Below, piece after piece: positions 3,822 through 27,511 of a stretch of DNA of 64,000 nucleotides (position 1 is its first letter; every line of letters begins with the position of its first letter). The stretch lies in NCBI RefSeq assembly GCF_005144585.1, contig NZ_SSMQ01000004.1, positions 62,001 through 126,000 on the forward strand, in the 5' to 3' direction. The notes under the pieces are model-generated. The model saw nothing but the letters and a program-made list of their open reading frames with translations, made no database searches and was not told where the DNA came from. The translations under genes were made by a program, and so were the position numbers. Source of the stretch: Polyangium fumosum (lineage in GTDB: Bacteria; Myxococcota_A; Polyangia; Polyangiales; Polyangiaceae).

Positions 3822-3908
3822 GCGCAGCCAGCACGTTTGCGAGGCAAAGGGCCCGCCTCCCGCCTCGCGGCGCGCTCCATTCCGACGCGCGCCGATCCGT
3901 TTCGAAGC

Positions 3909-7924: not shown

Positions 7925-8050
7925 GGCGCTGTGACCCTAGCTTGCCGGGAGCCGCGCGTCAGCGACGGCGGCGACGTAGGCGCGTTTTTCCACGCCCGCC
8001 CCCCGCGCCCGGTCCCGCGGATGGGATCCCATGGCCCCTCCGAAGCGCGG

Positions 8051-12788: not shown

Positions 12789-12871
12789 GCGTGCATGATG
12801 CGAGCATCACGTGCGCCTTGGCAACGGCCGCGTACCGTCCGGAGGGCGATATCCGCCTTCGAGGCGCATGG

Positions 12872-13618
12872 TTATCTGCGGACGAGTTGTCCCGCGCGGT
12901 AGGTCGCCCACGCCCACGCGAGCACGAGCGTGGAGAACACGCCGACGCCATACGCGAGGACGAGCGGCCACACGCCGAGCGACTCACGAATCCCCGCGGC
13001 GACGCCGGCGGCGCTGGCGCGGCTGACGCGCTCGACGGAAAGATCCAGGCACTTCGCCGCGTCCTCGCCTTCACACGCGGGGAAAAACGCGCCGAGCTCG
13101 CCCCGCACGCCGCGCGCCATCGACGCGGCCATCTGCTCGGTCGTCGCGGAGAGGCTCGTCGCGAGCGGCCCCTGGCCCGTGCGGCCCAGATCGGCCGAGA
13201 TCCCCTGCGAAAATGCGCGCGCCGCCTGGCCCGCGATCAACTCGACCGGCGTCGCGCGTCGTCCCTCGCGAAAGCCGCCCTCGCTCATAGGCTCGACGTC
13301 GTGCGGCATCCCCGACGCCGCGCTCGACGCGCCGAAGACGGCGCCTGCCCCGAGCGCCGCCGCGATCCGCTCGATGTCGCCGAGCCGCTGCGGCTGGCCG
13401 AGCTCCTCCGTCACGCTGCCAATGGCGCGCCGTTTCACGCCCTCTGCCAGCTCCTTGATGCGCTCGGGATCGCCGATCTTGCCGGCCAGCTTGCCCATCG
13501 CCCCCTCGGCTGCGCCCCGGCCCGCGCGCTGCGCGACGCCACACCCTGCTTGCCACGTAAAAAGGAGCATCAGAGCAGGTCTGCACAAGGAGGCGACGAG
13601 ATGTGGAATCCTCTTCAT
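12872..13618 (-). CDS. Hypothetical lipoprotein with C-terminal transmembrane segment
   Basis: A 248-residue protein. The frame stays open well upstream, but the ATG at 13618 has GGGAGAGG just before it and begins a lipoprotein signal peptide (MKRIPHLVASL, lipobox WQAGC). The middle is helical and Gly/Ala-rich, with charged stretches such as PERIKELAEGVKRRA. Three Cys residues lie near residues 185-200 and one hydrophobic helix near the C-terminus (VWPLVLAYGVGVFSTLVLAW) could be a second anchor. No family was recognised. It follows the metallophosphoesterase gene with a 32-bp gap, so co-transcription is likely. Confidence 0.75.
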   Translation of the reverse strand: MKRIPHLVASLCRPALMLLFTWQAGCGVAQRAGRGAAEGAMGKLAGKIGDPERIKELAEGVKRRAIGSVTEELGQPQRLGDIERIAAALGAGAVFGASSAASGMPHDVEPMSEGGFREGRRATPVELIAGQAARAFSQGISADLGRTGQGPLATSLSATTEQMAASMARGVRGELGAFFPACEGEDAAKCLDLSVERVSRASAAGVAAGIRESLGVWPLVLAYGVGVFSTLVLAWAWATYRAGQLVRR

Positions 13619-13650
13619 AAAGCCTCTCCCGCTTTCTCCCGCGCTCGTCC

Positions 13651-15204
13651 CTATCGGAGAGGCGCCGCCGAGGCGGGGCCGCCGGGTCGCGGCGGGACGA
13701 ACGCCCGGATGAGCGCGGCCTTCTTCGGCAATCTTTGCCCGAAGACGCCGGCCAGCATCTCCCCTAGACCGTAATAACAGAGGTATCCGGCAAGCACGAA
13801 TTTGACCAGCGGCGCCGAGGGCGGCCACAAGAGCAGGAGGAGGCCGGCGATCATCAACCCGACGCCCACGATGGAGAGCCAACGCGAGTCGACCATTCCC
13901 TTGAACACGACCGACGCCGCGGCGCGCAGCGCCCCCGAAATGAACGCCCAGATGCCGATCAAGACGACGAAGATCTCAGCGGCATAACCGCGGCGGAGCA
14001 CCACGAGCCCGAGCAGGATGCCGGCCGCGCCGCGCAGGCGGGAGAAGAGGCGCTTGAGGGGTACCTCGGACCGCGCGGCCCAAAGCGAGATGACGCCGTC
14101 GACGAGGGCATAAAGGCCAAAGGTCGTCACGAGCACGCGCCACCCCGCGCTCGCCCCATGACCGATGGAGACGCTCAAGGTGCCGATACCCAAGGCGAAC
14201 GCCAGCGCGCCCTGCGCGAGGAGGATCCACCGCGCCCGCTCCGGCTTCTTCGGCCTGGGAAAGAGCGTCTTGACGGCGGACTTGGCCGATTGAAACGGAT
14301 TCTGCACCGCGGAGGGCTCGGCGCGGCGCGGCTCGTCGGGCGCCACGACGGGCATCTCGTGCTCGATGGCGCGGCCGCTCTTCCACGCGAGATGACGAAC
14401 GTGGCCGTCCGGCGAGATACGCAGGAAGTGGTTGAGCGGGCCCGTCCACGATCCGCTGTTGAAATACCAATCTCCGATCCGGCCCACTTTGTGGGTGTGC
14501 CCGAGCACCACCACGTCGTACCCGTCCTTCTGCCGCTCGGCGCGGACGCCGGCCACGTGCTCGCCGAGCCGGTCCGGGTTCTGCGCCGGCGTCAGGGCCG
14601 CGTCGGGGCGCAGATCCTCGCGCGTCGCGTGTTTCTTCATCGCTCCGAGGGCGCACCTCCAGATCGTCAACATCGAATCGCCGAACTGCTCGAGCACGTC
14701 CTCCGCGGCCTCGCCGCTCCGCAGCAGCGGAGAGCCGTTCTCGTCCTCGAAGACGCCGCCGAAGATGGCGAGCATGCGGCCGAAACCGGGCTGGTCCCCT
14801 GCATTGAAGGGATCGGTCTCGTGCCCGTGGCAGAAGCGGAATCGCTTGCCCCCGATCACCCGCTCGAACGGCGCGCGCATGTGGGCGAACAAGGGATGCG
14901 CGAGGAGGTCCGTCCCGGCGAAGTGGACGAGGTCGACGTCGTGATTGCCTGGCACGTAGAGGGTCTCCACGGCGGCCAGGTGGTCGAGCAGCTCCCGTCG
15001 CTTCACGAAGAGGAGGCTCATGTTCATCTGCCAGAGTTCAAAAAGATCGCCGAGGATGAAGAGCTCGCCTCCCTCGGCGCCGACGTGATCGAGGAACGCG
15101 CGCAGCTCTCCCGTCTTCTTGCCTGCCTCGAAGTTGTCGCGCGCGCCGCCGTCACCGAGATGAAGATCGCTGATGACGAAGATGTCTCTGGCTGTACGAT
15201 CCAT
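13651..15204 (-). CDS. Metallophosphoesterase fused to an HdeD-like membrane domain
   Basis: A 517-residue two-part protein. Residues 1 to about 270 form a calcineurin-like phosphoesterase with the full metal-site set: SDLHLGD, LGDLFE, GNHD, and later GHTHKVG. The layout resembles LpxH/UDP-diacylglucosamine pyrophosphatase relatives. The C-terminal part from about residue 315 holds six hydrophobic segments resembling the HdeD/DUF308 family. The ATG at 15204 is preferred over an ATG 15 nt upstream because GGGGGAGGG lies directly before it. The membrane half may anchor the phosphoesterase at the inner membrane. The substrate is unknown. Confidence 0.85.
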   Translation of the reverse strand: MDRTARDIFVISDLHLGDGGARDNFEAGKKTGELRAFLDHVGAEGGELFILGDLFELWQMNMSLLFVKRRELLDHLAAVETLYVPGNHDVDLVHFAGTDLLAHPLFAHMRAPFERVIGGKRFRFCHGHETDPFNAGDQPGFGRMLAIFGGVFEDENGSPLLRSGEAAEDVLEQFGDSMLTIWRCALGAMKKHATREDLRPDAALTPAQNPDRLGEHVAGVRAERQKDGYDVVVLGHTHKVGRIGDWYFNSGSWTGPLNHFLRISPDGHVRHLAWKSGRAIEHEMPVVAPDEPRRAEPSAVQNPFQSAKSAVKTLFPRPKKPERARWILLAQGALAFALGIGTLSVSIGHGASAGWRVLVTTFGLYALVDGVISLWAARSEVPLKRLFSRLRGAAGILLGLVVLRRGYAAEIFVVLIGIWAFISGALRAAASVVFKGMVDSRWLSIVGVGLMIAGLLLLLWPPSAPLVKFVLAGYLCYYGLGEMLAGVFGQRLPKKAALIRAFVPPRPGGPASAAPLR

Positions 15205-15348
15205 CGCCCTCCCCCACACGAGCGCCTAGGGCCGGCGAGCCCTGGGAGCAAGCAAACGAACGCATCTCGATCTGCGACGCGTGCCCCGGCCCCGGCAGCA
15301 CGTGCGCGCGACAGGTGGGCGAAGGTGGGAACAATCTCGCCTCCCTGT

Positions 15349-15375
15349 GAGCCGTTTTCGCGCGTCGATCCACTT
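15349..15375 (+). promoter_or_regulatory. Shared ECF-type promoter/operator element, copy 1
   Basis: GAGCCGTTT, 7 nt, then TCGATCCACTT. The same two blocks with exactly the same 7-nt spacer occur at 20645 and 23450, and nowhere else that I found. The element ends 8 nt before the ATG of the first TOS1-like gene, so a promoter here would give a very short or leaderless mRNA. Its presence before the ECF sigma operon itself suggests recognition by that sigma factor (inference). Confidence 0.75.
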
Positions 15376-15383
15376 GCTGCTCG

Positions 15384-16625
15384 ATGAGGCTCGTTTCGCT
15401 CTTCGTTCGTGTGGTTCTCGTGATGCTCGCCTGCGGCTGCGGAGGGGGCGGCGGCCCAGGCAACACTTCCTCCTCCGACGGGGCCGGGGGGAGCGGCGGA
15501 TCAACGGGCTCCGGCCCCCAGAACCCGGAGCCGAGCCCGCCGACGCGGGGCGGGACCATGACGTTCACCAACGTCGGCGCGCCCGGGTGGTGGCCCCGCC
15601 GAATCGACCGCGAGGCCGGCGATCCCGCGTGCACCTACAAGGATGGGAACGACACCTGGGGAGGGCACTGCTGCATGAAAGAGCAGCACACGACGAGCGA
15701 GACGCTCGCGCCCTTCGACGAGGAGATGACCTTGATCATGAAGGCCCTCCGCCTCAAGCAGCTCGCGGTCTACCAGCCGGGCGAAGACCCGTCGTCGTGG
15801 TCTTTGGTCTCGTCGTGGGACGCGCAGAGCGGCCACGGCAAGAACCTCGTCGTCACCAACGGGCAGATGACGTCCGCCGACTTCACGGGCGACCTCACGA
15901 AGAAGGATTGCGTCAACTACTTCATGCAAGAGACGCCGTTCGCGTGTGGAGACGGGAAGGATTACTATTGCCCGAACGATCCGGGCATCAACCACCTCGG
16001 CTGGAAGGGCTCGAAGCTCATCGTCTTCCGCGCGTCGATGACGTTCGACGACGCGGGCGTCGAGAAGTGCGACGGCGGCGGGCAAGGCCACCCGGGCCCG
16101 TGGGTCGCGTTCGTCGCGTCCGAGCTGATTCGCGACGGCGGCCGCAAGTGGAACGGGCTCTGCAATTGCTACTCGAAGACGGGCACGGTCGGTGACGGCT
16201 GCGGCGAGATCAACGTGTTCGAGGTGGTGATGGACAACAACCCATACTCGAACCGCGAGTTCATGAGCACCGGCGTCCGTTCGTTCCAGGCCGGCCACGT
16301 CGGCGGCAATGTCTGCGGGGAGGGCTGCGATCGCGACGCCTTCGCCGACGACGTCGAGGTCGTCGACGCCTGCACGAAAAAGGCCTACACGACGGGACCC
16401 GAGATCGCGGTCGGCGGCGATTCGGACGGCTGCCCTGTGTGGCGCCGGCCCGTCGGCGATCGTTATTTCATGATCCTGCTCGACGAGAAGCAGCGACAAA
16501 TCCAGGTCGCGGTGATGCACCCCGACAACGTGCCTGCCGCGGCCGCGGCGATGCTCCCGTCGCTGCCCGGCGGCCTCTCCCGAACGACCATCGACGCGCT
16601 CCTCTCGATGCGCCTGCCCGAGTGA
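15384..16625 (+). CDS. TOS1-like putative glycosyl hydrolase lipoprotein (DUF2403 + DUF2401)
   Basis: A 413-residue lipoprotein, with lipobox LACG followed by a Gly/Ser-rich surface linker. Residues of about 55-75 (RGGTMTFTNVGAPGWW) match the DUF2403 start of fungal TOS1/YJL171C proteins. The remainder matches the TOS1-like putative glycosyl hydrolase domain (DUF2401), including the Cys-rich core CNCYSKTGTVGDGCGEINVF and the closing QIQVAVMHP. The CGEINVFE segment resembles the E-x-D-x-x-E active-site signature of GH16-like glucanases, with Asn in place of Asp. Fungal relatives are covalently linked wall proteins. A bacterial secreted copy beside GH128 enzymes suggests beta-glucan cleavage. 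It is first in an operon with the next three genes. Confidence 0.82.
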   Translation: MRLVSLFVRVVLVMLACGCGGGGGPGNTSSSDGAGGSGGSTGSGPQNPEPSPPTRGGTMTFTNVGAPGWWPRRIDREAGDPACTYKDGNDTWGGHCCMKEQHTTSETLAPFDEEMTLIMKALRLKQLAVYQPGEDPSSWSLVSSWDAQSGHGKNLVVTNGQMTSADFTGDLTKKDCVNYFMQETPFACGDGKDYYCPNDPGINHLGWKGSKLIVFRASMTFDDAGVEKCDGGGQGHPGPWVAFVASELIRDGGRKWNGLCNCYSKTGTVGDGCGEINVFEVVMDNNPYSNREFMSTGVRSFQAGHVGGNVCGEGCDRDAFADDVEVVDACTKKAYTTGPEIAVGGDSDGCPVWRRPVGDRYFMILLDEKQRQIQVAVMHPDNVPAAAAAMLPSLPGGLSRTTIDALLSMRLPE

Positions 16626-16633
16626 TCGAACCC

Positions 16634-17542
16634 ATGCTTCACGACAAACGACTTCCATGGCTTTTGGCCGCGGTGATGGCGGCGCTCGTCTCGGTCTCTT
16701 GCGGCTCGAGCGAGCCGGCTCCAGGCCCCGGCGGCGGCGGGCCGCCGATCACCCATTCCACCGGCTGCAAGCGCGGCGTCGCTTACGGGTACCATTCGAA
16801 GGCGGACATGGCGGCGCTCTCGCCGGCGGTGTCGTGGTGGTACAACTGGGCGCACGTACCGGACGAGGGCGTGAAGCCCGACGTGTACAAGACGCTCGGC
16901 GTCGAATACGTTCCGATGGTGTGGGGCGGCGGCGGCCTCGATAGCAATCGCGCCGCGGAGATCGCGGCCGAGATCCCCGACGGGGTGAACTTCTTGCTCG
17001 GCTTCAACGAGCCGAACTTCGGCGAGCAGGCCAATATGTCGGCGGCCGAAGCCGCAGCGCTCTGGCCGCACGTGGAGGCGGTCGCCGACGCGCGTGGCCT
17101 CGCGCTGGTCTCACCCGCCGTGAACTTCTGCGGTGGATCGTGCCAGGAGACCGACCCCTTCAAGTACCTCGACGACTTCTTCGCCGCCTGCGAGGGGTGC
17201 CGCGTCGATTCCATCGGCATCCACATCTACACGGCCTGCCAGGGCGACGGGACGAACAAGGCCCGGTGGCTCATCAACCACATCGAAACGTACAAGACGC
17301 GGTTCGACAAGCCGCTCTGGCTGACCGAGTTCGCGTGCGACAACGCAGGCTCGCTCGCCGAGCAAAAAGCCTTCCTGGTCGACGCGCTCGATTATCTGGA
17401 GAACGAGCCGCGTATCGCGCGGTACGCGTGGTTCTCGGGTCGACCCGACAACGTGGCGAACGCGAGCCTGCTGGGGGACGACGGCGTGTTGACGGAGCTC
17501 GGCCAAGCGTACGTGGCCGCGCCCCAAACGTCCTGCGAGTGA
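16634..17542 (+). CDS. GH128-type endo-beta-1,3-glucanase, secreted lipoprotein
   Basis: A 302-residue lipoprotein (lipobox SVSC) with a Gly/Pro-rich linker and a Glyco_hydro_cc/GH128 catalytic domain, a TIM barrel cleaving beta-1,3-glucan. Visible signatures are KRGVAYGYHS and SWWYNWA at the barrel start, the proposed acid/base Glu in LLGFNEPNFG, VSPAVNFCGGSC mid-domain, and the proposed nucleophile Glu in WLTEFACD. Both glutamates are present. Its ATG lies 8 nt after the previous stop. The protein at 23485 is a clear paralogue. Fungal cell walls, curdlan or laminarin-like glucans are plausible substrates. Confidence 0.88.
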   Translation: MLHDKRLPWLLAAVMAALVSVSCGSSEPAPGPGGGGPPITHSTGCKRGVAYGYHSKADMAALSPAVSWWYNWAHVPDEGVKPDVYKTLGVEYVPMVWGGGGLDSNRAAEIAAEIPDGVNFLLGFNEPNFGEQANMSAAEAAALWPHVEAVADARGLALVSPAVNFCGGSCQETDPFKYLDDFFAACEGCRVDSIGIHIYTACQGDGTNKARWLINHIETYKTRFDKPLWLTEFACDNAGSLAEQKAFLVDALDYLENEPRIARYAWFSGRPDNVANASLLGDDGVLTELGQAYVAAPQTSCE

Positions 17543-17575
17543 CGGGTCCGCTTGATTGGAATGGAGGTGCTCTCG

Positions 17576-18922
17576 ATGAAAAGCGCAATCACGTTCGGAA
17601 TTGGCATCGGCATGGGCCTCCTGTCCGGCGTCCTCGCCGGCTGCAGCGGGGGCGAGGGCGCGGACGGCGACACCGGAAAGCCCTGGGTCGACAACGGCCC
17701 TGACAACCGCCCCGAGGACGCCTGCCTCGCGGAAGGTGTCGACAACACCACGCCCTTCTCCAAGACGTACCGGGTCAAGCACATCGGGGACACGACCTTC
17801 CAGGGGACTCCGTACGAGATCGTCGCCTCGATGCCGTGGACCTACACGCTTCAGGCGGTCCAATGCGAAAAGACATTCCCGATGGTGGAGACCGAGACCC
17901 ACTACATCGTGGAGAGCGACTTCGAGCTCCCGTACATCAAGGGAATCATGGACGACGTCGCCTGGACGCCCGGCGAAAGGAACAAGGGCTGGTCGATTGG
18001 ATCCAACGACGATCCCGGCGAGCTCATCGAGAAGAATGGAGGGATGCGCCCCTTCATTTATCACGTGAACGGCGGCTACGAGTACGGATACTCCGTCTAC
18101 AACAAGGACCCGCTCCCCGGCGACCCGATCAACTTCACGGGCTTCCGGCCGACGTGGGTCGTGCACCCCGACGGCGACGGCTACGAGATGTTTTTCCTCA
18201 ACCCGGCGGCGCCCGACTCGCAGGGGTTCGAGTGGCCTCGCCACGGCGCGAACTGGCAGCTCAACTTCGGGCTCTACGTCGATCCCACGGGCCACGTCTA
18301 CGTGCCGAAGCCGGAGAAGGCCAAGCTCGCCAGCCACGACGAGGGCTGGGACGATTACCACGGCTGCGTGACCATCAACAAAGCCAACGCGCCCATCCCG
18401 ACGACACGGACCCAGTTCCCCGGCAACGAGTCGTATTACGCGTCCGAGACCTTCCTGCCCGGCTACGCCGCGCCCGGCGCTCCTGGGCACAAGTACTGGG
18501 GCCACAAGGGCCGGCCCATGGAGGAGGTCGCCATCTGGGAGGACGACGGCGCCCCCGGCCTCAACTCACCCGGCAACTACCACAAGCCTTATTCGGGCGG
18601 GTGTGACAAGGCCGGCTACAACTTCGCCCACGCCGAGGGCTTCACGTGGCCCGAGCTGCGCGCCGCGCGGACGCAGATGGGCGACATCCCGACGAAGGAT
18701 CAGCTCTACAAGATCACGCTCTACAGGTACCTCGGCAAGGACGGGACGACCGAGCTGCTCGGCACGCTCTCGTACGAGCAGCAGGAGAACGGCGAGTGGA
18801 TCCCCACCGGATCGGGGCCCGAGGTCCATTCGCTCAACGACAAGAACGGACGCTGGATCATCAATGGCCCCGTCTTCCAGGACCGCGGGGATCATGTCTT
18901 TGCGATCCTCGAGGATCTTTGA
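17576..18922 (+). CDS. Secreted lipoprotein of unknown function in the glucanase operon
   Basis: A 448-residue lipoprotein. The start ATG at 17576 has GGAGG 8 nt upstream, and the signal ends in lipobox VLAGC. The mature protein is rich in Trp, Tyr, Gly, Asp and Pro, with few Cys, like a beta-rich extracellular enzyme or carbohydrate-binding protein. Examples are PTWVVHPDGDGYEMFFLNP, EWPRHGANWQLNFGLYVDP and HKYWGHKGRP. I recognise no known family. It sits 33 bp after GH128 and 2 bp before the second TOS1-like gene, so it should act on, or bind, the same polysaccharide (inference). An undescribed glycosidase or binding module is a fair guess. Confidence 0.85.
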   Translation: MKSAITFGIGIGMGLLSGVLAGCSGGEGADGDTGKPWVDNGPDNRPEDACLAEGVDNTTPFSKTYRVKHIGDTTFQGTPYEIVASMPWTYTLQAVQCEKTFPMVETETHYIVESDFELPYIKGIMDDVAWTPGERNKGWSIGSNDDPGELIEKNGGMRPFIYHVNGGYEYGYSVYNKDPLPGDPINFTGFRPTWVVHPDGDGYEMFFLNPAAPDSQGFEWPRHGANWQLNFGLYVDPTGHVYVPKPEKAKLASHDEGWDDYHGCVTINKANAPIPTTRTQFPGNESYYASETFLPGYAAPGAPGHKYWGHKGRPMEEVAIWEDDGAPGLNSPGNYHKPYSGGCDKAGYNFAHAEGFTWPELRAARTQMGDIPTKDQLYKITLYRYLGKDGTTELLGTLSYEQQENGEWIPTGSGPEVHSLNDKNGRWIINGPVFQDRGDHVFAILEDL

Positions 18923-18924
18923 GC

Positions 18925-20280
18925 ATGGGCTTCGCCATGAGGTTGTCTTCGCGTCGCCTCCTCGGGCTGGGTCTGCTCGTCGTCTCGGGCGTGATCACGG
19001 CCGGGGCGTGCAGCTCGAGCGAGGGCGGCGGCGGCTCCGGCCAGGCGGGAGACGGCCCGCCGCTCGGCGATCCGGACACGGGGACCTGGCTCGATCTCGG
19101 CAACACGCACGCGCCGCCGCACGAGCCGGCGGTCCCGACGAACACGGGCGTCGTCACGCGCGGCGGGACGTTGACGTTCACCAACATCGGGGCGGAGGGG
19201 TATTGGGGGCGTCGCATCGAAGCCGAGCCCGGGGACCCTCGCTGCGACGTGCAATCGGAGACCATCGACTTCGGGTGGGGCAGCGAGTTCTGCTGCCGGA
19301 CCAAACACGAGGTCACGTCGAACCTCCTGACCCCGTTCAACGAGCAGCTCACGATGGTGCTCGACGGGCCGCTGCGCGTGAAGCAGTTCGCCGTGTATCA
19401 GCCGCTCGCCGATCGCAAAGGCCCGTGGGCGATCCGTTCGTTCTGGGATCGGCGGACGCCGGAGACGCCCTACAATTTCCAGTTCTCCGGACCGAACAAC
19501 GCCTCGGTCTTCGGCGGTGACCTGGGCAATAGCTGCACCTTCTTCGCGATGCAGCAGAACAAGTTCCCGTGCGGGCCCGGCAGCGACCCGTACTGCCCGG
19601 GGTCGGGCCTCGACTACGACGGGTGGCCCGGCTCGAAGCTGGTCGTGCTCCTCGCGTCGATGCCTTATGCCGACGATCCTTCGGTGAAGCCGCTGAGCTG
19701 CATCGCGGCGGACCAGGACGAGCGAGAGCAGGATTCGCCGTGGATCGGGATTTCTCCCTCCGAGCTCAATCGTGACGGCTGGTCTGGGTACCACCCGTGC
19801 CATTGCTTCAACAACACGAACAACGGCCAGCTCGGAGACGGTTGTGGCCAGATCAACGTGTTCGAGGTCATCGCCGAGGCGTCCGGGCCTCAATGGGGCA
19901 ACCGCGACGTCATCAGCACGGGCATCCGCTCGTACCAGGTGGGCTCCCTCGGCGGCGTGACGTGCGGCATTCAGTCGTGCGGGATCGAGCAGTTCCCCGC
20001 GGACGCCGATCTCCTGGACGTGAACAGCCTGACCGCGATGCAGGCAGGCGCGGTCATCGACGCGGATCACCCCGCGACGAAGGAAGGCCCGGCGTGGCGG
20101 CGCGCCCTGGATGATCGTTACTACCTGTTCTTGCTCGACGAGCTCTCGCGCACGGTGCAAGTGGCCGTGATCCATCCGGGCAAGATCCCCGAAGCCGCGC
20201 ACGCCATCGTCCCCGCGCTCCCCAACACGGTCCCACGAGCCGTGATCGACGGGTTCGTGAGCCTCCGTCTGCCCCAGTAG
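18925..20280 (+). CDS. Second TOS1-like putative glycosyl hydrolase lipoprotein
   Basis: A 451-residue paralogue of the protein at 15384, with lipobox TAGAC and a Gly-rich linker. DUF2403-like TRGGTLTFTNIGAEGYW is followed by the DUF2401-like domain with CHCFNNTNNGQLGDGCGQIN and closing VQVAVIHPG. The segment aligned with CGEINVFE in the first copy reads CGQINVFE, so the first Glu of the proposed E-x-x-x-x-E pair is Gln here. If that Glu is catalytic, this copy may be inactive and act as a binding protein. The start codon follows the previous stop by 2 nt, and the gene ends the operon before the inverted hairpin elements. Confidence 0.8.
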   Translation: MGFAMRLSSRRLLGLGLLVVSGVITAGACSSSEGGGGSGQAGDGPPLGDPDTGTWLDLGNTHAPPHEPAVPTNTGVVTRGGTLTFTNIGAEGYWGRRIEAEPGDPRCDVQSETIDFGWGSEFCCRTKHEVTSNLLTPFNEQLTMVLDGPLRVKQFAVYQPLADRKGPWAIRSFWDRRTPETPYNFQFSGPNNASVFGGDLGNSCTFFAMQQNKFPCGPGSDPYCPGSGLDYDGWPGSKLVVLLASMPYADDPSVKPLSCIAADQDEREQDSPWIGISPSELNRDGWSGYHPCHCFNNTNNGQLGDGCGQINVFEVIAEASGPQWGNRDVISTGIRSYQVGSLGGVTCGIQSCGIEQFPADADLLDVNSLTAMQAGAVIDADHPATKEGPAWRRALDDRYYLFLLDELSRTVQVAVIHPGKIPEAAHAIVPALPNTVPRAVIDGFVSLRLPQ

Positions 20281-20298
20281 CCCGAAGCCGCCGCCGCG

Positions 20299-20412
20299 CC
20301 GGGGCGCTGCCCCGGTCCCCGCGGGGGGCTGTCCGCCCCCTCGACCCCGGACCAGCGAGGCGCTGGACCCAGGGTTGAAAAACTGCGCTCCGCGCAGTTT
20401 TTCAAACAGGCC
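20299..20412 (+). repeat. Inverted hairpin element, left copy
   Basis: About 114 bp that is repeated in opposite orientation at 20489-20599. Blocks in order are a GGGGC/GCCCC hairpin (20299-20315), a GGGGGCTGTCCGCCCC block, then CGGACCAGCGAGG and CGCTGGACCC, the hairpin at 20377-20403 and the end block AACAGGCC. The hairpin arms differ between copies, but each copy keeps perfect self-complementarity, so pairing has been conserved while sequence changed. It looks like a REP/MITE-like intergenic element. Confidence 0.7.
20377..20403. terminator. Strong hairpin at the end of the glucanase operon
   Basis: A perfect 12-bp stem (GAAAAACTGCGC paired with GCGCAGTTTTTC) with a 3-nt loop, about 100 bp after the stop of the second TOS1-like gene. 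The U-rich end of the right arm could support intrinsic termination in either direction, although no long T run follows. It lies within the left copy of the inverted element. Confidence 0.5.
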
Positions 20413-20488
20413 GACGAAGCACCCAGGTCGCCAGCCGAACCGGCAGCGCGGCTGTCTTGGTTGGCAGGGTCGTCGCCAGTCTTGACCG

Positions 20489-20599
20489 GGCCTGTTCGAT
20501 GAACTGCGCATCGCGCAGTTCATCGAGCTTGGGTCCAGCGCCTCGCTGGTCCGGGTGCAGGGGCGGACAGCCCCTGCTGGGGCCTGGGGCAACGCCCCA
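20489..20599 (-). repeat. Inverted hairpin element, right copy
   Basis: The reverse-orientation copy of the element at 20299-20412. Its own hairpin is at 20498-20524 (GATGAACTGCGC paired with GCGCAGTTCATC, 3-nt loop). It continues into the CCAGCGCCTCGCTGG, GGGGCGGACAGCCCC and GGGGCAACGCCCC blocks. The pair faces inward around about 75 bp of unrelated sequence, separating the glucanase operon from the ECF sigma operon. Confidence 0.7.
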
Positions 20600-20644
20600 G
20601 CTCCCGGTCGCCGAAGCGCGAAAAAAAAAAATCGCGTGTCGGGT

Positions 20645-20671
20645 GAGCCGTTTCGTGCGATCGACCCACTT
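20645..20671 (+). promoter_or_regulatory. Shared ECF-type promoter/operator element, copy 2 (sigma operon)
   Basis: GAGCCGTTT, 7 nt, then TCGACCCACTT: one substitution in the second block relative to the other two copies. It ends 16 nt before the ATG of the ECF sigma gene, which points to autoregulation of the sigma operon (inference). Confidence 0.75.
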
Positions 20672-20687
20672 TGCTCGTGGACCCTTC

Positions 20688-21272
20688 ATGGCCGAGCCCG
20701 TCACGAGACTGGACCCGCGGCGGAGCGACGCGGCGCTCGTCACGGCTGCGCTCGAAGGTGACGAGCGGGCCAAAGAGGCGTTGTTTCGCCGGTACGTGGG
20801 GATGGTGAGCGGACTCTCGTTCCGGCTGCTCGGACGCGACGAGGAGCTCGAGGACATCGTGCAGGAGAGCTTCGCCCAGGCCTTCGCCGCGCTCCACAAG
20901 CTCGAGCGGCCCCAGGCGTTCGCGGCGTGGCTCTCGTCGATCGTGACCCGTGTCACGATCGCGACCATCCGGCGCCGGCGGCTGCTTTCGCGCCTCGGGC
21001 TCCTGCGCGGCGAGCCGGTGCACCTCGAGACGATCATCGCGTCGACGGCGCCCCCGGACGTCGTCGCCGAGCTCACGGCGGTCTACGGCCTCATCGCCAA
21101 GCTGCCCGTGAAAGAGCGCGTCGTGCTGATCCTGCGGCGGGTCGAGGAGCTCTCGCTGGAGGAGGTCGCCGCGCAGACCGGGTGGTCGCTCGCCACCGTC
21201 AAGCGCGCGCTCGTCCGCGCGGAGGGCTTGCTCGACGTTTCGCGTGCGCGCGGGGGGGAGGAGGAGGGATGA
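20688..21272 (+). CDS. ECF-family RNA polymerase sigma factor
   Basis: A 194-residue sigma-70 family factor of ECF size. Region 2 includes ELEDIVQESFAQAFAAL. Region 4 includes LSLEEVAAQTGWSLATVKRA, a helix-turn-helix that would read the -35 block. Regions 1 and 3 are absent, as in ECF factors. The stop overlaps the ATG of the FecR-like gene (ATGA), so sigma and likely anti-sigma are translationally coupled. The same upstream element precedes this operon and the flanking glucanase transcripts, so this factor is the best candidate for controlling them. Confidence 0.93.
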   Translation: MAEPVTRLDPRRSDAALVTAALEGDERAKEALFRRYVGMVSGLSFRLLGRDEELEDIVQESFAQAFAALHKLERPQAFAAWLSSIVTRVTIATIRRRRLLSRLGLLRGEPVHLETIIASTAPPDVVAELTAVYGLIAKLPVKERVVLILRRVEELSLEEVAAQTGWSLATVKRALVRAEGLLDVSRARGGEEEG

Positions 21273-22390
21273 GATCGGTGTCGCGTCGCCGCACCGCGGA
21301 CTTCGTGAGCCCGCCGCTGAGTGAGGCGCGCATCACGCGGATGTGGTCGGCCATCGCGAGCGCCGAGCGTGCGCGGCTCCGAGGATCGGAGAGCCCACGT
21401 TCGGAGGCGCGCTGGACGATGCGCTGGCGGGCCGCCTCGATCCTGGCCGCGGCGCTCGGGGTCGTGGCGCTCGTCCTCGGCGTGCGGCTCCGCTCGCCGT
21501 CGAGCCCTGCGATGGCGGGGCTCGTGATCGACACGGGGGCGGCGGTCCAGGAGGTGTCCCTGCCCGACGGGAGCATCTTGAGCCTGGCCGCGGCGACGCG
21601 CCTGCACGTGCTCTCCGCGACCGCCCACGAGGTCCGCCTGCGCCTCGAGCGCGGCAGCGTGATCTGCGACGTCGTGCACCGCGAGGAGCGCCGCTTCGTC
21701 GTCGCCGCGGGAGACGTCGAGGTGGAGGATCGAGGCACGCGCTTCGCGGTCGACGTGCGCCCGGAAGCGGCGCGAGAGGTGGTCGAGGTGCGCGTCGAGC
21801 GTGGCGCGGTCGAGGTGCGCGACGCGACGCAAACGGTCCTCGCGACGCTCAAGCCGGGGCAGGATTGGAAGAGCCGCGGCCCCGAGCCGCTCACGGTGGG
21901 GCCCCTCCTCGCCCCGCAGGGCAGCGGCGAGCCGGCGGCGCCGAGCGCGTCGGCCTCGGCGGCGAGCGCGCCGACGAGCGCGCCGGCGCCTTTGGTGTCC
22001 GCTCGATCGGCGCGCGCTCTCTCGCCCGAGGCGCTCTTCGACCGCGCGAGCGCGGCGCGGCTCGACGGGCGCCACGCGGACGCGGCCGCCGACTTCGAGC
22101 GGTTCTACCGGCGCTTCCCCGACGATCCGCGCGCCGGGCTCGCCGCCTACGAGCTCGGGCGCATCCGCCTCGGATCACTGCGCGATCCGCAGGGCGCGGC
22201 CGCGGCGTTCGAGGCCGTCCTCGAACGGCCGAGTGATCCCTTTCGCGAAGACGCGGAGGCGGCCCGCGTCGAGGCGCTGGCGAACCTCGACGACCGGGAG
22301 GCCTGCCTGCGCGCGCGCGACGCGTTCCTCGCGCGTTACCCGCGGAGCCTGCAGGCCGGGCGCGTGGCGAGGCTCTGCGGAGGCCCATGA
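21269..22390 (+). CDS. FecR-like membrane protein with C-terminal TPR-like region, probable anti-sigma regulator
   Basis: A 373-residue protein beginning at an ATG that overlaps the sigma stop, after GGAGGAGGG. A cytoplasmic N-terminus of about 50 residues is followed by one transmembrane helix (ASILAAALGVVALVLGV) and a FecR-like periplasmic domain at about residues 85-195 (LPDGSILSLAAATRL, then RGSVICDVVHREERRFVVAAGDVEVEDRGTRF in part). An Ala/Ser/Pro linker leads to a TPR-like tail at about residues 250-370. FecR proteins usually relay an outer-membrane signal to an ECF sigma factor. The TPR extension is not standard for that family. Confidence 0.85.
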   Translation: MRSVSRRRTADFVSPPLSEARITRMWSAIASAERARLRGSESPRSEARWTMRWRAASILAAALGVVALVLGVRLRSPSSPAMAGLVIDTGAAVQEVSLPDGSILSLAAATRLHVLSATAHEVRLRLERGSVICDVVHREERRFVVAAGDVEVEDRGTRFAVDVRPEAAREVVEVRVERGAVEVRDATQTVLATLKPGQDWKSRGPEPLTVGPLLAPQGSGEPAAPSASASAASAPTSAPAPLVSARSARALSPEALFDRASAARLDGRHADAAADFERFYRRFPDDPRAGLAAYELGRIRLGSLRDPQGAAAAFEAVLERPSDPFREDAEAARVEALANLDDREACLRARDAFLARYPRSLQAGRVARLCGGP

Positions 22391-23448
22391 GGACAGGGCT
22401 TCGCCTCCGCCTCACCGGCGCTTTGCTGCTCGCGCTCGGCGCGCGCGCGGCCCCCGCCGAGGCCGCGCCTCCGCCCCCGCAGGCTGGGAGCGGTCGCGCG
22501 GTGGTCGAGCTCGTGCTGGAGGTCGAGCCTCCGGATCGCATCATCGGGACGGCCCTGGAGCGGCATCTCCGCGCCGAGCTCGGCGCGCGCGACATCGACG
22601 TCGTCGTCGTCCCGAGCGCGACGCCCGCGGCCCCGTCCACGGGTCCGCGCCCCATCGCTCGGATCACCCTTCACGTCGAGCACCAGGCGAGTGGTGCTTT
22701 CCTCGCGACCATCCGGGTCGGCGATCTGATCATGGACAAGCGCGTCGAGCGCACCCTCGATCTCGGACGAATCCCCGCGAACGGCCGGGCGCTCGCCGTC
22801 GCGGCGTCGACCGACGAGCTGCTCCGCGCGAGCTGGATGGAGCTGACGATCGCCGACGCGCCGGCGCCGATCCTCGCGCCGCCTCCGCCCGTCCTGCGCG
22901 CGATCTTGGCCCCGGCTCCGCCTGCGCGCGCGCGGCCGCCGTTCCTCGAGATCGGCCTCGCCGGGACCGCGGTCGACTTCTTCGGCCACCGCGTGGGGTT
23001 CGGCGGCGCGGCGTGGGTCGGCGCCTGGTGTATGTCGCGCCTCCTCTTGGAGCTTCGTTTCGCGGCCGATTTCGGCCTCCCGCGCGCGTCCCTGCACGGC
23101 TCGGCGCGCGCGGACACCCTCGGCCCGGGCCTCGGGTTGGCCTTCGCGTTCCTGCCTCCCGAAGCGCCGCTCGGCGTGCGGCTCGAAGCGAACGCGGACG
23201 TGGTGCGCGTCCACCTCGTCGGCTCGGCCTCCGGCTCTGCGACGGCGAGCGACGGAGCGCGCTGGACCGGTCTCGCCGGCGGGACGGTCCGCGGCTGGGC
23301 GCGGACCGGCCCGATCGCCTGGACCCTCGGCGTCGGCGCGGTCGCCGCGTTGCACTCGGTCGCGGCAACCGACGACGGCGCCGTGGTGACCGCGATCCAG
23401 GGCGTCGGGGGCAAGATCGACGCGGGGATCTCCTTCGACCTTCGCTGA
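22387..23448 (+). CDS. Predicted outer-membrane beta-barrel-like protein of the ECF operon
   Basis: A 353-residue exported protein. A signal peptide ending near AAPAEA is followed by a periplasmic alpha/beta part to about residue 160 and an Ala/Pro-rich linker. From about residue 180 come alternating Gly/aromatic/hydrophobic stretches (FLEIGLAGTAVDFFGHRVGF, GLGLAFAFLP, ending GISFDLR) that look like outer-membrane strands. The start overlaps the FecR-like stop (ATGA), giving a three-gene coupled set: sigma, inner-membrane FecR-like protein and outer-membrane protein. A role as surface sensor or glucan-responsive receptor is inferred from that order only. Confidence 0.75.
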   Translation: MRTGLRLRLTGALLLALGARAAPAEAAPPPPQAGSGRAVVELVLEVEPPDRIIGTALERHLRAELGARDIDVVVVPSATPAAPSTGPRPIARITLHVEHQASGAFLATIRVGDLIMDKRVERTLDLGRIPANGRALAVAASTDELLRASWMELTIADAPAPILAPPPPVLRAILAPAPPARARPPFLEIGLAGTAVDFFGHRVGFGGAAWVGAWCMSRLLLELRFAADFGLPRASLHGSARADTLGPGLGLAFAFLPPEAPLGVRLEANADVVRVHLVGSASGSATASDGARWTGLAGGTVRGWARTGPIAWTLGVGAVAALHSVAATDDGAVVTAIQGVGGKIDAGISFDLR

Positions 23449-23449
23449 C

Positions 23450-23476
23450 GAGCCGTTTCCGGCGCTCGATCCACTT
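23450..23476 (+). promoter_or_regulatory. Shared ECF-type promoter/operator element, copy 3
   Basis: GAGCCGTTT, 7 nt, then TCGATCCACTT, identical to copy 1 in both blocks. It starts 2 nt after the stop of the outer-membrane protein gene and ends 8 nt before the ATG of the second GH128 gene, giving that gene its own copy despite lying directly downstream of the sigma operon. Confidence 0.75.
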
Positions 23477-23484
23477 CCTCCTCG

Positions 23485-24411
23485 ATGCAAAGCCCTCTGC
23501 CTCTCCTCGCTCGTGTGTCCATCGGCCTCGCAGGGGCCCTCACCGCCTGCGGCTCGAGCAGCGTCGAGGTGCTGCACACGGGCACGGGGGGCTCCGGCGC
23601 GGACGCCTCGAGCGGGAGCGGCGCATCCGCGTCGTCGGGCACCGGCGGCGCTGCCCCGGCCGCGTGCAAGCGCGGGGTCGCGTACGGCTACCACTCCGTG
23701 GCCGACCTCACCGCGCTCTCGAAGGGGATCGGCTGGTGGTACAACTGGGCGACGAAACCGGACAACACCGACGTCGCCGATGCCCATGCCGGGCTCGGCG
23801 TGGAGTATGTGCCCATGGCGTGGGGGGAGGCCTCCCTCGTGGGGCTCTCCGCGGAGGTCCCGGCCGACGCGCGTCATCTCCTCGGCTTCAACGAGCCCAA
23901 TTTCGGCTCGCAAGCGAACCTCACGCCGACGCAGGCGGCCGCGCTCTGGCCTCAGATCGAGGACTTCGCGGAGCAGCACGACCTCGTGATCGTGTCGCCC
24001 GCCGTCAACTTCTGCGGGGGCACTTGCAACGTGGCCGACCCGTTCGAGTGGCTCGACCAGTTCTTTGCCGCGTGCCAGGGCTGCACGGTCGATGCTATCG
24101 CCATGCACTGGTACGCGTGTGACGGCAGTGCGCTCACCTGGTACCTCCAGCAATTCGAGAGCAAGTACACGCAAAAGCTCTGGCTCACGGAGTTCTCGTG
24201 CCTCGACGGGAGCGACACCTCCGAGCCCGCGCAACAAGCCTACATGAAGGCCGCGCTCGCGATCCTCGAGGCCGATCCCAGGGTCGAACGTTATGCGTGG
24301 TTCACCGGGCGGAGCGACTTCACGCCCAGCATCGATCTGCTGGGCGCGGACGGTGAACTCACCCCGCTCGGCCAGACGTATGTGAACGCCCCCGCGAGCT
24401 GCAAGCCGTGA
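23485..24411 (+). CDS. Second GH128-type beta-1,3-glucanase lipoprotein
   Basis: A 308-residue paralogue of the enzyme at 16634. Lipobox LTAC is followed by a longer Gly/Ser/Ala linker (residues 25-60). The GH128 signatures are present: KRGVAYGYHSVADL, GWWYNWATKPDN, proposed acid/base Glu in LLGFNEPNFGS, VSPAVNFCGGTC, MHWYAC, and proposed nucleophile Glu in WLTEFSCL. All catalytic features are intact. The initiator ATG is 8 nt after the shared element, so the transcript probably has almost no leader. No downstream gene on this strand is close enough to belong to the same operon. Confidence 0.88.
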   Translation: MQSPLPLLARVSIGLAGALTACGSSSVEVLHTGTGGSGADASSGSGASASSGTGGAAPAACKRGVAYGYHSVADLTALSKGIGWWYNWATKPDNTDVADAHAGLGVEYVPMAWGEASLVGLSAEVPADARHLLGFNEPNFGSQANLTPTQAAALWPQIEDFAEQHDLVIVSPAVNFCGGTCNVADPFEWLDQFFAACQGCTVDAIAMHWYACDGSALTWYLQQFESKYTQKLWLTEFSCLDGSDTSEPAQQAYMKAALAILEADPRVERYAWFTGRSDFTPSIDLLGADGELTPLGQTYVNAPASCKP

Positions 24412-25327: not shown

Positions 25328-27511
25328 ATGAAACATTATGCTCATGGGCCGCTGTGGCTCGCGCCGCTTGCCTTGTTCGCGACCGCCTGTGGCGTCGATT
25401 CGTCGGGGATGAGCGCGGGAGGAGACGGGGGCGGGCAGGCTGCGAGTCCGGCATCGGAGACGACAGCCGAGGCGCGGGCGGCGTTGACGGCGGGCGCGGG
25501 CAGCCTGGGTGATTGCAACGGGAACCCGGCGCGCTGCGCGGCGGTGAACGTTGCCGCGGGCTACTACCACACCGTGGCGCTGAAGTCGGACGGCTCGGTC
25601 TGGGCCTGGGGATACAACAACCGCGGGCAGCTCGGGGACAACAGCACCACCGAACAACTCATACCTGTGCCTGTGGACGGGCTGAGCGGCGTCACCGCGG
25701 TCGCGGCGGGCGACGAACACACGGTCGCGCTGAAGTCGGACGGCACGGTCTGGACCTGGGGGCGTAACTACGAAGGCCAGCTCGGCGACAACAGCACCAC
25801 CAATCGACTCACGCCTGGACAGGTGAGCGGGCTTGTCGGTGTCGCCGCGGTGGCGACGGGCAACTACCACACGGTCGCGCTGAAGTCGGACGGCACGGTC
25901 TGGACCTGGGGGCGAAACGACTATGGCCAGCTCGGCGACAACACCACCACCGCTCGACTCACGCCCGTGCAAGTGAGCGGGCTCAGCGGCATCACCGCGG
26001 TGACGGCGGGCTACACACACTCTATCGCGCTGAAGTCGGACGGCACCGTCTGGGCCTGGGGATACAACGCCCGCGGGCAGCTCGGGGACAACACCACCAC
26101 CAATCGACACAAGCCCGTGAAAACGACCGGTCTGAGCGGCATCACCGCGGTGGCGGCGGGGGCAATGCACACCGTGGCGCTGAAGTCAAACGGCAGCGTC
26201 TGGGCCTGGGGGCGCAACTTCGGTGGCCAGGTCGGGGACGGCACGGCCACCGATCGACACGTTCCGGTCCAAGCAAGTGGAATGGTAGACGTGGTCGCGG
26301 TGGCGGCGGGCCACGACCACACCTTGGCGCTGAAGCCGAACGGTAAGGTCCACGTCTGGGGGGACAACAGCAGAGGCCAGCTCGGAGACAGCTCGACCCT
26401 CGACATACATCAGCCCGCAGAGCTGGCAGGTATTGGTGGCATCACCGCGGTGGCGGGGGGCTCCGCACATACCGTGGTGCTGAAGTCGGACGGCACGGTG
26501 TGGACCTGGGGGTACAACCTCCATGGCCAGCTTGGCGACAATACGACCGTCAATCACAACACGCCTGTGCAAATAAGCGGATTCGGCCTCTTCTCGATGT
26601 GCGGCACCAGGGCGGCATGCGACGTGGGTACGGGCGCATGCCTCACCGCGCCGGCGCCGAACGGGACGGCCTGCAACGACAGCAATGCTTGCACGCAGAT
26701 GGACGCCTGCCAGGCGGGCGTCTGCACCGGCGCGAACCCGGTGATGTGCGCCGCGTCCGACCCATGCCACAATGCGGGCACCTGCAACCCCGCGACGGGC
26801 GTGTGCTCCGGGAATCCGTCGAAGCCCAACGGCTCCTCGTGCGACGATGGCAATGCCTGCACGCAGACGGATACGTGCCAGTCGGGCACGTGCGTCGGCG
26901 CGATCCCGGTGACGTGCTCCGCGCCCGATCCATGCCACGATGCGGGCACGTGCGACCCCGCGACGGGCGTGTGCTCCACGCCGGCGAAGGCCAATGGGGC
27001 GGGATGCGACGATGGAGATGCCTGCACGCAATCGGACACGTGCCAGGGTGGGATCTGCACCGGAGCCGACGTGGTTGTCTGCCCGCCGGTGGGCGAGTGC
27101 GAAGTCGGGCTGTGCAACGCGGCCAATGGGGTGTGCGCGCCGAGCCCCAAGCCGGACAACACGCCTTGCGCAGGCGGGGTTTGCCTGGCCGGCGTGTGCC
27201 AGATCGAGGGACCGACGTCGAGTTCGAGCGCGACCGGCACCGGCGGCGGCGGCGGCACCGGCGGCAGCGCGACCGGCAGCGGCGGCAGCGGCGGCACCGG
27301 CGGCAGCGCGACCGGCACCGGCGGGATGATGGCGACGAGCACGACCACGGGAGCAGGCGGAGGCAACGGGGAAATCCCCTCCAGCGAGGATGGCTGTGGC
27401 GCATGCGTCGTTGGTGGCGGATCGGCGAAAGGCGCCCCTTGGGTCGGTCTTGGGCTCTTGCTCGCGCTGCGGCGGAGGCGGCAGAGCCCTCGGGGCGGCG
27501 CGCCATCGTGA
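25328..27511 (+). CDS. Secreted RCC1 beta-propeller protein with Cys-rich repeats and MYXO-CTERM-like tail
   Basis: A 727-residue protein starting with a signal peptide ending in lipobox-like FATAC. Seven RCC1 repeats of 50 residues follow (each [15 protein letters not shown] plus GQLGDN), enough for a closed seven-bladed propeller, at about residues 70-425. Then come three Cys-rich repeats (NACTQ-D-CQ-G-C pattern, about residues 430-600) and a Gly/Thr/Ser-rich stalk. The C-terminus reads CGACVVGGG, then a hydrophobic helix and RRRRQ, which fits a MYXO-CTERM-type surface sorting signal. It is likely displayed on the cell surface. Ligand unknown. The start follows AAGGA at a slightly long spacing. 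Confidence 0.88.
25552..26590 (+). repeat. Seven 150-bp tandem repeats encoding RCC1 blades
   Basis: The RCC1 blades are repeated at DNA level with a regular 150-bp period. Copies 1-5 are the most similar (for example GCTGAAGTCGGACGGCACGG recurs), and copies 6-7 are more diverged. Such near-identical in-frame units can expand or contract by recombination. Confidence 0.75.

Follow-up and report, generated by a model that had tools for sequence, protein, structure and literature searches.

A candidate ECF sigma-controlled regulon for beta-1,3-glucan digestion in the myxobacterium Polyangium fumosum

How might a predatory soil myxobacterium switch on the enzymes with which it digests glucan walls? 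The question is raised by a group of eight genes within a 64,000-nucleotide stretch of the Polyangium fumosum genome (the window; assembly GCF_005144585.1, contig NZ_SSMQ01000004.1, positions 62,001 to 126,000, forward strand). The original prediction, made from sequence alone, described two operons and a single gene encoding two TOS1-like putative glycosyl hydrolases, two GH128-type glucanases, an unknown secreted lipoprotein, an ECF sigma factor, a FecR-like protein and an outer-membrane-like protein, with all of the enzymes being lipoproteins. It inferred a self-regulated surface system for attacking fungal or yeast walls, or for feeding on glucan. We find that the described gene set is present as stated, and that comparison with other genomes supports the inferred regulon, although no transcript, binding or enzyme data were available to us and the fungal target is likely rather than demonstrated.

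Gene content and predicted products

The eight genes form three transcription units (Table 1). The four genes of the hydrolase operon are separated by gaps of 8, 33 and 2 nt, and are followed by a 407-nt gap. The genes for the ECF sigma factor, the FecR-domain protein and the outer-membrane protein (OMP) overlap by 4 nt at each junction, indicating a second operon. The second GH128 gene (GH128 H) begins 36 nt after the OMP gene and has its own promoter-like motif. The five secreted enzymes or enzyme-like proteins each show a signal peptide ending in a lipobox Cys (identified by eye). The arrangement is more than chance, as a tblastn comparison showed the cluster to be conserved gene for gene in three other Polyangium genomes.

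Table 1. Features of the candidate regulon, with positions in the window.
Positions	Strand	Feature	Support
15348..15375	+	Candidate ECF promoter 1, TGAGCCGTTTTCGCGCGTCGATCCACTT, 8 nt before the ATG of the four-gene hydrolase operon; no Shine-Dalgarno between, probably leaderless	Conserved in three congeners and before the TOS1A operon of Minicystis
15384..16625	+	TOS1-like lipoprotein A (predicted circularly permuted beta-1,3-glucanase type); keeps EINVFE motif	Pfam PF10290 2.6e-5 and PF10287 2.4e-4, both just under cut-off; alignment
16634..17542	+	GH128 endo-beta-1,3-glucanase-type lipoprotein A, subgroup-II-like; catalytic Glu motifs NEPNF and LTEF kept	Pfam 8e-60; PDB 6uax (ScGH128_II), E 2.5e-155
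17576..18922	+	Unknown secreted lipoprotein	Faint, sub-threshold resemblance to fungal SUN/GH132 family; structure model unusable
18925..20280	+	TOS1-like lipoprotein D; Q instead of E at the first position of E/Q-I-N-V-F-E	Pfam PF10290 1e-9, over cut-off; alignment
20644..20671	+	Candidate ECF promoter 2 (autoregulation), TGAGCCGTTTCGTGCGATCGACCCACTT, 16 nt before the ECF ATG	Motif scans and comparison with relatives
20688..21272	+	ECF sigma factor	Pfam Sigma70_r2 3.6e-13, r4_2 1.7e-13; NCBIfam sigma70-ECF 4.6e-18
21269..22390	+	FecR-domain regulator: short N-terminal segment with conserved R-x-W, one hydrophobic segment, FecR domain, C-terminal YbgF-like TPR with two invariant Cys	Pfam FecR 1.2e-14 and TPR; YbgF-type TPR 6.7e-9; alignment
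22387..23448	+	Outer-membrane protein: signal peptide, predicted periplasmic alpha/beta domain (about residues 38-180), predicted 8-stranded OmpA-like barrel (183-353)	AlphaFold2 mean pLDDT 89.6; OmpA/NspA Z about 17, CadC periplasmic domain Z 10.1; no Pfam family
23449..23476	+	Candidate ECF promoter 3, CGAGCCGTTTCCGGCGCTCGATCCACTT, 8 nt before the GH128 H ATG	Motif scans and comparison with relatives
23485..24411	+	GH128 lipoprotein H: N-terminal tail CGSSSVEVL, long Gly/Ser/Ala linker, GH128 domain with both catalytic Glu motifs	Pfam 2.6e-61; tail signature

Both GH128 proteins score far above the curated cut-off for the Glyco_hydro_cc domain (202.8 and 207.7 bits vs 21), and the two catalytic glutamates (NEPNF and LTEF) are present in each. 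The glutamate assignment draws on alignment to PDB 8j3x and 8j3y, in which the NEPNF Glu is Q in the 8j3y chain, and on an E168Q inactive mutant (PMC10956234). GH128 A is very close to ScGH128_II, to which it aligns over 283 residues, but differs in its placement, as a lipoprotein, in a sigma-controlled regulon. Hydrolysis of beta-1,3-glucan was not assayed for either protein. Assignment of the other two putative hydrolases to the fungal TOS1/YJL171C family is less secure. TOS1-like D exceeds the cut-off of the N-terminal Pfam model (39.1 vs 27 bits), A falls just under it (25 vs 27), and both are under the cut-off of the C-terminal model, so that the profile scores leave family membership undecided. 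The TOS1 profile matched no PDB chain. Bacterial members were found here only in Myxococcota (44 loci). Because D has Q where A has E, it may not be catalytic.

The unknown lipoprotein does not qualify as a member of the SUN/GH132 family (PF03856, 13.7 vs 25 bits), although a weak hit was seen in 14 of 16 homologues (best E 0.016). Its profile found nothing convincing in the PDB, and its AlphaFold2 model (mean pLDDT 39) was not used. It is often paired with TOS1-like D or A in other myxobacteria. Across 184 genomes of the order, TOS1 and GH128 co-occur (26/33 vs 6/151).

A two-block motif marks the three units and recurs in relatives

We identified a 28-nt two-block motif, TGAGCCGTTT-N7-TCGAYCCACTT, that lies 8-16 nt before the first start codon of each unit. 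The original prediction did not mention it, although the start it gave for the locus, 15349, is the start of the motif. The motif is expected 0 times in the window but was found 3 times, and these are the only three good sites in the 13-Mb genome; two other hits, with 3 mismatches, are one unrelated repeat. Only one full copy of this OMP is in the genome, so the pairing of sigma factor and promoter is unambiguous. The ECF protein is about 200 aa long and has sigma regions 2 and 4 only, as expected for an ECF sigma factor, and a two-block promoter near its operon that is known by comparison only.

Co-occurrence of the gene set in related genomes, proposed in advance as a test of the regulon, was found. 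Three other Polyangium genomes retain the eight genes in the same order, along with all three sites. In Minicystis rosea the genes are scattered over 11 Mb, yet the pattern blindly recovered exactly four sites in 16 Mb (1 in the reversed control). These lie before the ECF gene, GH128 H, a sigma/TOS1A/GH128A operon 11 Mb away, and the only GH64 beta-1,3-glucanase gene. GH64 is absent from the Polyangium genomes tested, so it is not part of the regulon here.

A separate instance of the design occurs in a distant family (labelled G053), where ECF-FecR-OMP-GH128-TOS1 lies between GH18 and GH64 genes. TGAGCC-N16-CGACC precedes ECF and GH128, and a weaker TGAGCT version (T for C, shifted TCG) precedes GH64, whereas the GH18 gene lacks the motif. 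A degenerate pattern for this promoter gave 28 hits against 21 in the reversed control and is not specific alone; only the positions next to the ECF and GH128 starts count. ECF genes of diverged modules carry the same upstream architecture (25 of 41 by a strict pattern, against a 6.5% background). However, the -10 variants were defined after inspection, so their significance is optimistic, and the modules are related by descent. Some sites in relatives are weak.

These distributions bear on two alternatives. The hydrolase cluster could simply lie beside an unrelated ECF module, as clusters of the unknown lipoprotein with TOS1, and of TOS1 with GH128, occur widely without any ECF gene. We consider this very unlikely given the shared promoters at all units, the conservation in four Polyangium genomes, the instance in G053 and, in particular, the trans-linked sites in Minicystis. 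Alternatively, the motif may be the binding site of another regulator (activator, repressor or RNA-level element), with the ECF factor among its targets rather than its reader. The unusual proximity of the motif to the start codons, which requires leaderless or nearly leaderless mRNAs, is compatible with this, as is the weakness of some sites in relatives. We regard it as unlikely because the motif follows ECF genes of this module through the whole order with a fixed 15-16 nt spacer between two blocks, the geometry of a sigma promoter, and the second block changes by clade while the first stays. In Minicystis it marks scattered targets and the ECF gene itself, and no other regulator gene travels with all sites.

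A proposed surface-signalling circuit

We predict, with fairly good confidence, that the locus is an autoregulated surface-signalling regulon for digesting beta-1,3-glucan. In this view, the ECF sigma factor recognises TGAGCC-N16-CCACTT-type promoters and transcribes its own operon, the hydrolase operon and the lone GH128 lipoprotein gene. This part, ECF autoregulation plus control of the glucanases, is well supported by comparison, though unproven by experiment; the steps that follow are inferred, from gene order and protein domains in the case of the FecR contacts, and from enzyme families in the case of wall digestion. Without ligand, the FecR protein would hold the sigma factor at the inner membrane, with its periplasmic FecR/TPR part contacting the periplasmic domain of the OMP. 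GH128 H would be tethered to the OMP barrel through its conserved C-x(3-6)-V-L tail and present its glucan-binding domain at the surface, a sensor role that is untested. Contact with beta-1,3-glucan, or with products of a basal level of enzyme, would change the complex and free the sigma factor, and the induced lipoprotein hydrolases would then open beta-1,3-glucan walls for feeding. Paralogous TOS1-GH128 clusters in the same genome and in many relatives have no motif and no ECF gene, so beta-glucan digestion does not need this switch.

The FecR relay is not the textbook one, and we reject an ordinary FecIRA system. As in FecI-FecR-FecA signalling, an ECF gene is followed by a gene for a single-span FecR-domain regulator with a short cytoplasmic N-terminus, next to an outer-membrane protein, and a surface signal is inferred. 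However, the 353-aa OMP has no Pfam plug, STN or receptor match, models as a small OmpA-like barrel with a CadC/TolB-like periplasmic domain, and no gene for a TonB-dependent receptor with a signalling domain lies elsewhere in the cluster. The FecR protein carries a C-terminal YbgF-like TPR, the ECF operon appears autoregulated (E. coli fecIR is sigma70/Fur controlled; PMC9249621), and the targets are glucanases rather than iron uptake. A polysaccharide utilisation locus of the Bacteroidetes SusC/SusD type is also rejected, as no SusC/SusD pair or TonB transporter is encoded among the eight genes. The Leptospira LIC_12757/LIC_12756 pair (PMC12155086) likewise combines an ECF factor and a FecR-like regulator without a matching FecA-type transducer, but no barrel-lipoprotein partner or glucanase regulon is described for it in the text examined.

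The switch belongs to an ECF-FecR(TPR)-barrel-lipoprotein module that we found about 45 times in the order, and for which, as for the regulon, literature searches limited to open-licence papers returned no report. The lipoprotein beside the barrel carries a conserved C-x(3-6)-V-[LI] tail (9/9 vs 0/114, a pattern also defined after inspection). Its outer domain is an RCC1 propeller in most copies, an unknown domain in some, and GH128 here. It is possible, although we put it at slightly less than even, that this locus is one specialised copy of a widespread, undescribed envelope-signalling module, in which the lipoprotein docks by its tail and its exchangeable outer domain lets the module read different surface ligands. 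If so, a glycosidase has been recruited as the sensor of the very regulon that it serves.

Likely substrate and role in the organism

Beta-1,3-glucan is the main fibre of fungal and oomycete walls, and the enzyme families suggest that walls of fungi or oomycetes are the most likely target. Feeding on non-fungal beta-1,3-glucan (oomycete wall, plant callose, algal laminarin or curdlan; storage glucans are likewise not excluded) is a possible but less likely alternative. GH128, GH64 and TOS1 all point to beta-1,3-glucan and none is exclusive to fungal walls, and only one of the regulon loci (G053) has a neighbouring chitinase gene, the GH18 gene without the motif. On the other hand, TOS1 is best known from yeast walls, the G053 copy does sit next to that chitinase gene, and myxobacteria lyse fungi with glucanases and chitinases. 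Surface-located attack on fungal wall glucan has a precedent in GluM, an outer-membrane beta-1,6-glucanase of Corallococcus reported to be needed for initial sensing (PMC10800785). GluM is itself the barrel enzyme and of a different family, whereas here the barrel protein is the apparent signalling partner and the enzymes are lipoproteins for beta-1,3-glucan.

The enzymes could instead remodel the bacterium's own glucan or matrix (fruiting body, spore coat), with the ECF module acting as an envelope or developmental switch. Myxobacteria have complex matrices, and RCC1-bearing relatives of the module control DUF1592-DUF1552 genes of unknown role. We consider this improbable because the enzyme set is patchy, unlike a core developmental function: TOS1 occurs in 37 of 184 genomes of the order, and of six genomes of the genus one lacks TOS1 and two have no ECF module.

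The literature on myxobacterial attack on fungi describes the switching on of wall-degrading enzymes mostly at the enzyme level. The locus provides a concrete, testable promoter and sigma factor for how a predatory bacterium would switch on wall-degrading enzymes, and the motif predicts targets in other genomes, as it did for the single GH64 gene of Minicystis rosea. It also exposes a TonB-free class of ECF-FecR surface signalling, with a barrel and an exchangeable lipoprotein sensor, in many myxobacteria, which could be used to find other regulons.

Gene content and the shared promoter-like motif

The region lies in a 13-Mb genome whose relatives in the same genus are Polyangium species. The eight genes named in the original prediction are all present, so the observation on which it rested holds. 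They lie on the + strand in three units, with successive gaps of 8, 33, 2, 407, -4, -4 and 36 nt. Pfam searches clearly confirm GH128, ECF and FecR plus TPR, and confirm TOS1 weakly to moderately, whereas the unknown protein and the outer-membrane protein (OMP) match no family over threshold. All five enzyme-like proteins have lipobox signal peptides, as judged by eye.

Coordinates of the units and of related features in the window and in other loci
Location	Position	Strand	Feature
Window	15384-20280	+	TOS1A-GH128A-unknown-TOS1D
Window	20298-20601		Two nested long imperfect inverted repeats
Window	20688-23448	+	ECF-FecR-OMP
Window	23485-24411	+	GH128H
Window	25328-27511		Large RCC1-repeat-like lipoprotein
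L039 (same genome, contig C152)	6701-10438	+	Second cluster: unknown' (43%), TOS1A' (about 80-88%), GH128A' (about 78-91%)
L047 (Minicystis rosea)	12558-13396	-	ECF-like sigma gene at the head of the TOS1A-GH128A operon
L121 (other module copy)	13105-14751	-	DUF1592/DUF1588 - DUF1552 gene pair with TGAGCC-N16-(GGTAC/GGCAC) promoter
L126 (other module copy)	12101-13768	+	DUF1592/DUF1588 - DUF1552 gene pair with TGAGCC-N16-(GGTAC/GGCAC) promoter
L109 (other module copy)	7056-8318	+	Lipoprotein in the place of GH128H
L111 (other module copy)	2918-4171	+	Lipoprotein in the place of GH128H

A two-block motif, [T/C]GAGCCGTTT-N7-TCGAYCCACTT, stands 8, 16 and 8 nt before the three first start codons. 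It is found three times in the window, where shuffled sequences lead us to expect none. In the whole genome these are the only clear sites, and the only two others, at 3 mismatches, are one repeated unrelated sequence. Sequence similarity between the three places does not extend much beyond the motif, so it is not a copied element. No Shine-Dalgarno sequence fits between motif and ATG in units 1 and 3; we infer that a start at or near the ATG (leaderless mRNA) would fit a -10 block at that distance. The inverted repeats between TOS1D and the ECF promoter fill that gap, with arms of 67 and 42 nt that are 84% and 81% complementary. Their core occurs nowhere else in the window, and they could be a terminator-like or mobile palindromic element.

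Conservation and recurrence of the motif in other genomes

Whether the same gene set occurs together in related genomes had been proposed in advance as a test, and three other genomes of the genus (G149, G150 and G151) keep all eight genes in order, along with all three motifs with 0-2 mismatches. The genus members without the ECF module (genomes G152 and G153) have no good motif (one hit each at 2 mismatches), and G152 has only a paralogous unknown-TOS1-GH128 cluster. This second cluster also exists in the genome studied here (locus L039), where it carries neither the motif nor any ECF gene, and it is conserved in several relatives.

Minicystis rosea (CP016211) provides a predictive test. It has the module ECF-FecR-OMP-GH128H at 13.73 Mb (locus L108), whereas the TOS1A-GH128A operon (locus L047) is 11 Mb away. 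A relaxed pattern gives exactly four sites in its 16.0 Mb, with one hit for the reversed control. The sites are before ECF, before GH128H, before the operon sigma-TOS1A-GH128A and, at a place to which nothing had pointed beforehand, directly before a gene for a GH64 beta-1,3-glucanase lipoprotein. GH64 occurs in only two of twelve genomes searched, with one locus in each, and both have the promoter architecture upstream. Thus, the motif selects beta-1,3-glucan hydrolases and the regulator, in trans. The motif-headed operon of M. rosea begins with a second, different ECF-like sigma gene with C-terminal repeats, a possible cascade.

A distant instance was identified in G053, a MAG of another family, in which a GH18 chitinase gene is followed by ECF, FecR, OMP, GH128 and TOS1, and then by a GH64 gene. 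The shared proteins are 34-62% identical to those of the window. The promoter there is TGAGCC-N16-CGACC before ECF and GH128, and TGAGCT-N16-CGACC before GH64, but the chitinase gene lacks it. The changed second block is shared by the sites of that genome, as expected if promoter and sigma factor evolve together.

The wider module and its proteins

A profile of the OMP finds relatives in 54 of 184 genomes of the order. The genome studied here has only one full copy of this OMP. Of 45 loci examined, nearly all of those away from contig edges have ECF-FecR-OMP in the same order. Upstream of ECF, 25 of 41 fit TGAGC[C/T]-N16/17-(GGTAC, CCAC, CGAC and similar), compared to 6.5% of random 320-nt stretches, and several more fit with a 15-nt spacer. 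The list of second blocks was drawn up after inspection and the modules share ancestry, so the figure is descriptive. Some copies carry the same promoter before DUF1592-DUF1552 pairs (e.g., loci L121 and L126), linking these unknown proteins to surface signalling.

The gene after OMP encodes a lipoprotein whose mature N-terminus carries C-x(3-6)-V-[LI]. This tail was found in 9 of 9 by an automatic call, as against 0 of 114 other lipoproteins in the same loci (the pattern was defined after inspection), and in more by eye. The outer domain is RCC1 in four proteins scanned and in about 20 by motif count, of no known family in loci L109-L111, and GH128 in the window group, Minicystis and G053. 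The lipoproteins of L109 and L111 have the same tail but a Cys-rich outer domain without any Pfam match. In a tree of the three concatenated proteins, the GH128-bearing and unknown-domain modules group together with support 1.00, apart from RCC1 modules. The large RCC1-repeat-like lipoprotein just downstream of the cluster lacks the C-x-V-L tail and an adjacent OMP, and was not counted as part of the module.

The AlphaFold2 model of the OMP, based on 37 sequences, has a mean pLDDT of 89.6. In this model, residues 183-353 match 8-stranded barrels (OmpA and NspA; Z about 17, rmsd 2.5-2.8 over about 150 residues), and residues 38-180 match the periplasmic domain of CadC (Z 10.1, rmsd 3.5, 115 residues). 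Foldseek also lists TolB at low TM-score. The FecR protein has a short N-terminus with a conserved R-x-W, a hydrophobic segment, the FecR domain and a YbgF-like TPR with two invariant Cys. A periplasmic contact between OMP and FecR is thus plausible, although it is not shown. The system is not of the FecA type, which needs a TonB-dependent receptor with a signalling domain (PMC9249621).

GH128A aligns to PDB 6uax, named as ScGH128_II of subgroup II (PMC10956234), over 283 residues at E 2.5e-155. Both GH128 proteins keep the two glutamate motifs. Tos1 has been predicted to be a circularly permuted beta-1,3-glucanase (Steczkiewicz 2010, as cited in PMC5872309; also PMC11657238). In bacteria, the TOS1-like proteins were found only in Myxococcota (44 loci), and across 184 genomes they co-occur with strong GH128 matches (26 of 33 compared to 6 of 151, without correction for phylogeny). 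TOS1D and nine others of the 28 aligned proteins have Q where TOS1A has E in the E/Q-I-N-V-F-E motif; no evidence on whether that residue is catalytic was obtained here.

Predicted function of the regulon

Comparison of genomes supports the conclusion that the ECF factor reads the motif, drives its own operon and controls the beta-1,3-glucanases. The remaining steps are inferred. FecR may restrain the sigma factor, and the OMP and its partner lipoprotein GH128H may form the outer sensor, so that contact with glucan would release the sigma factor and the lipoprotein enzymes would then open glucan walls. The core of the interpretation made in the original prediction, a self-regulated surface system for degrading beta-1,3-glucan, is supported: the regulatory logic is well supported for a computational case, whereas the sensing mechanism and the prey are hypotheses. 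Likely prey are fungi or oomycetes, since myxobacteria are known to attack both with glucanases (PMC10800785), but other glucan sources are not excluded. We conclude that this is a real regulon, in which a new form of ECF-FecR surface signalling, distinct from the FecA type, is coupled to a beta-1,3-glucan degradation set.
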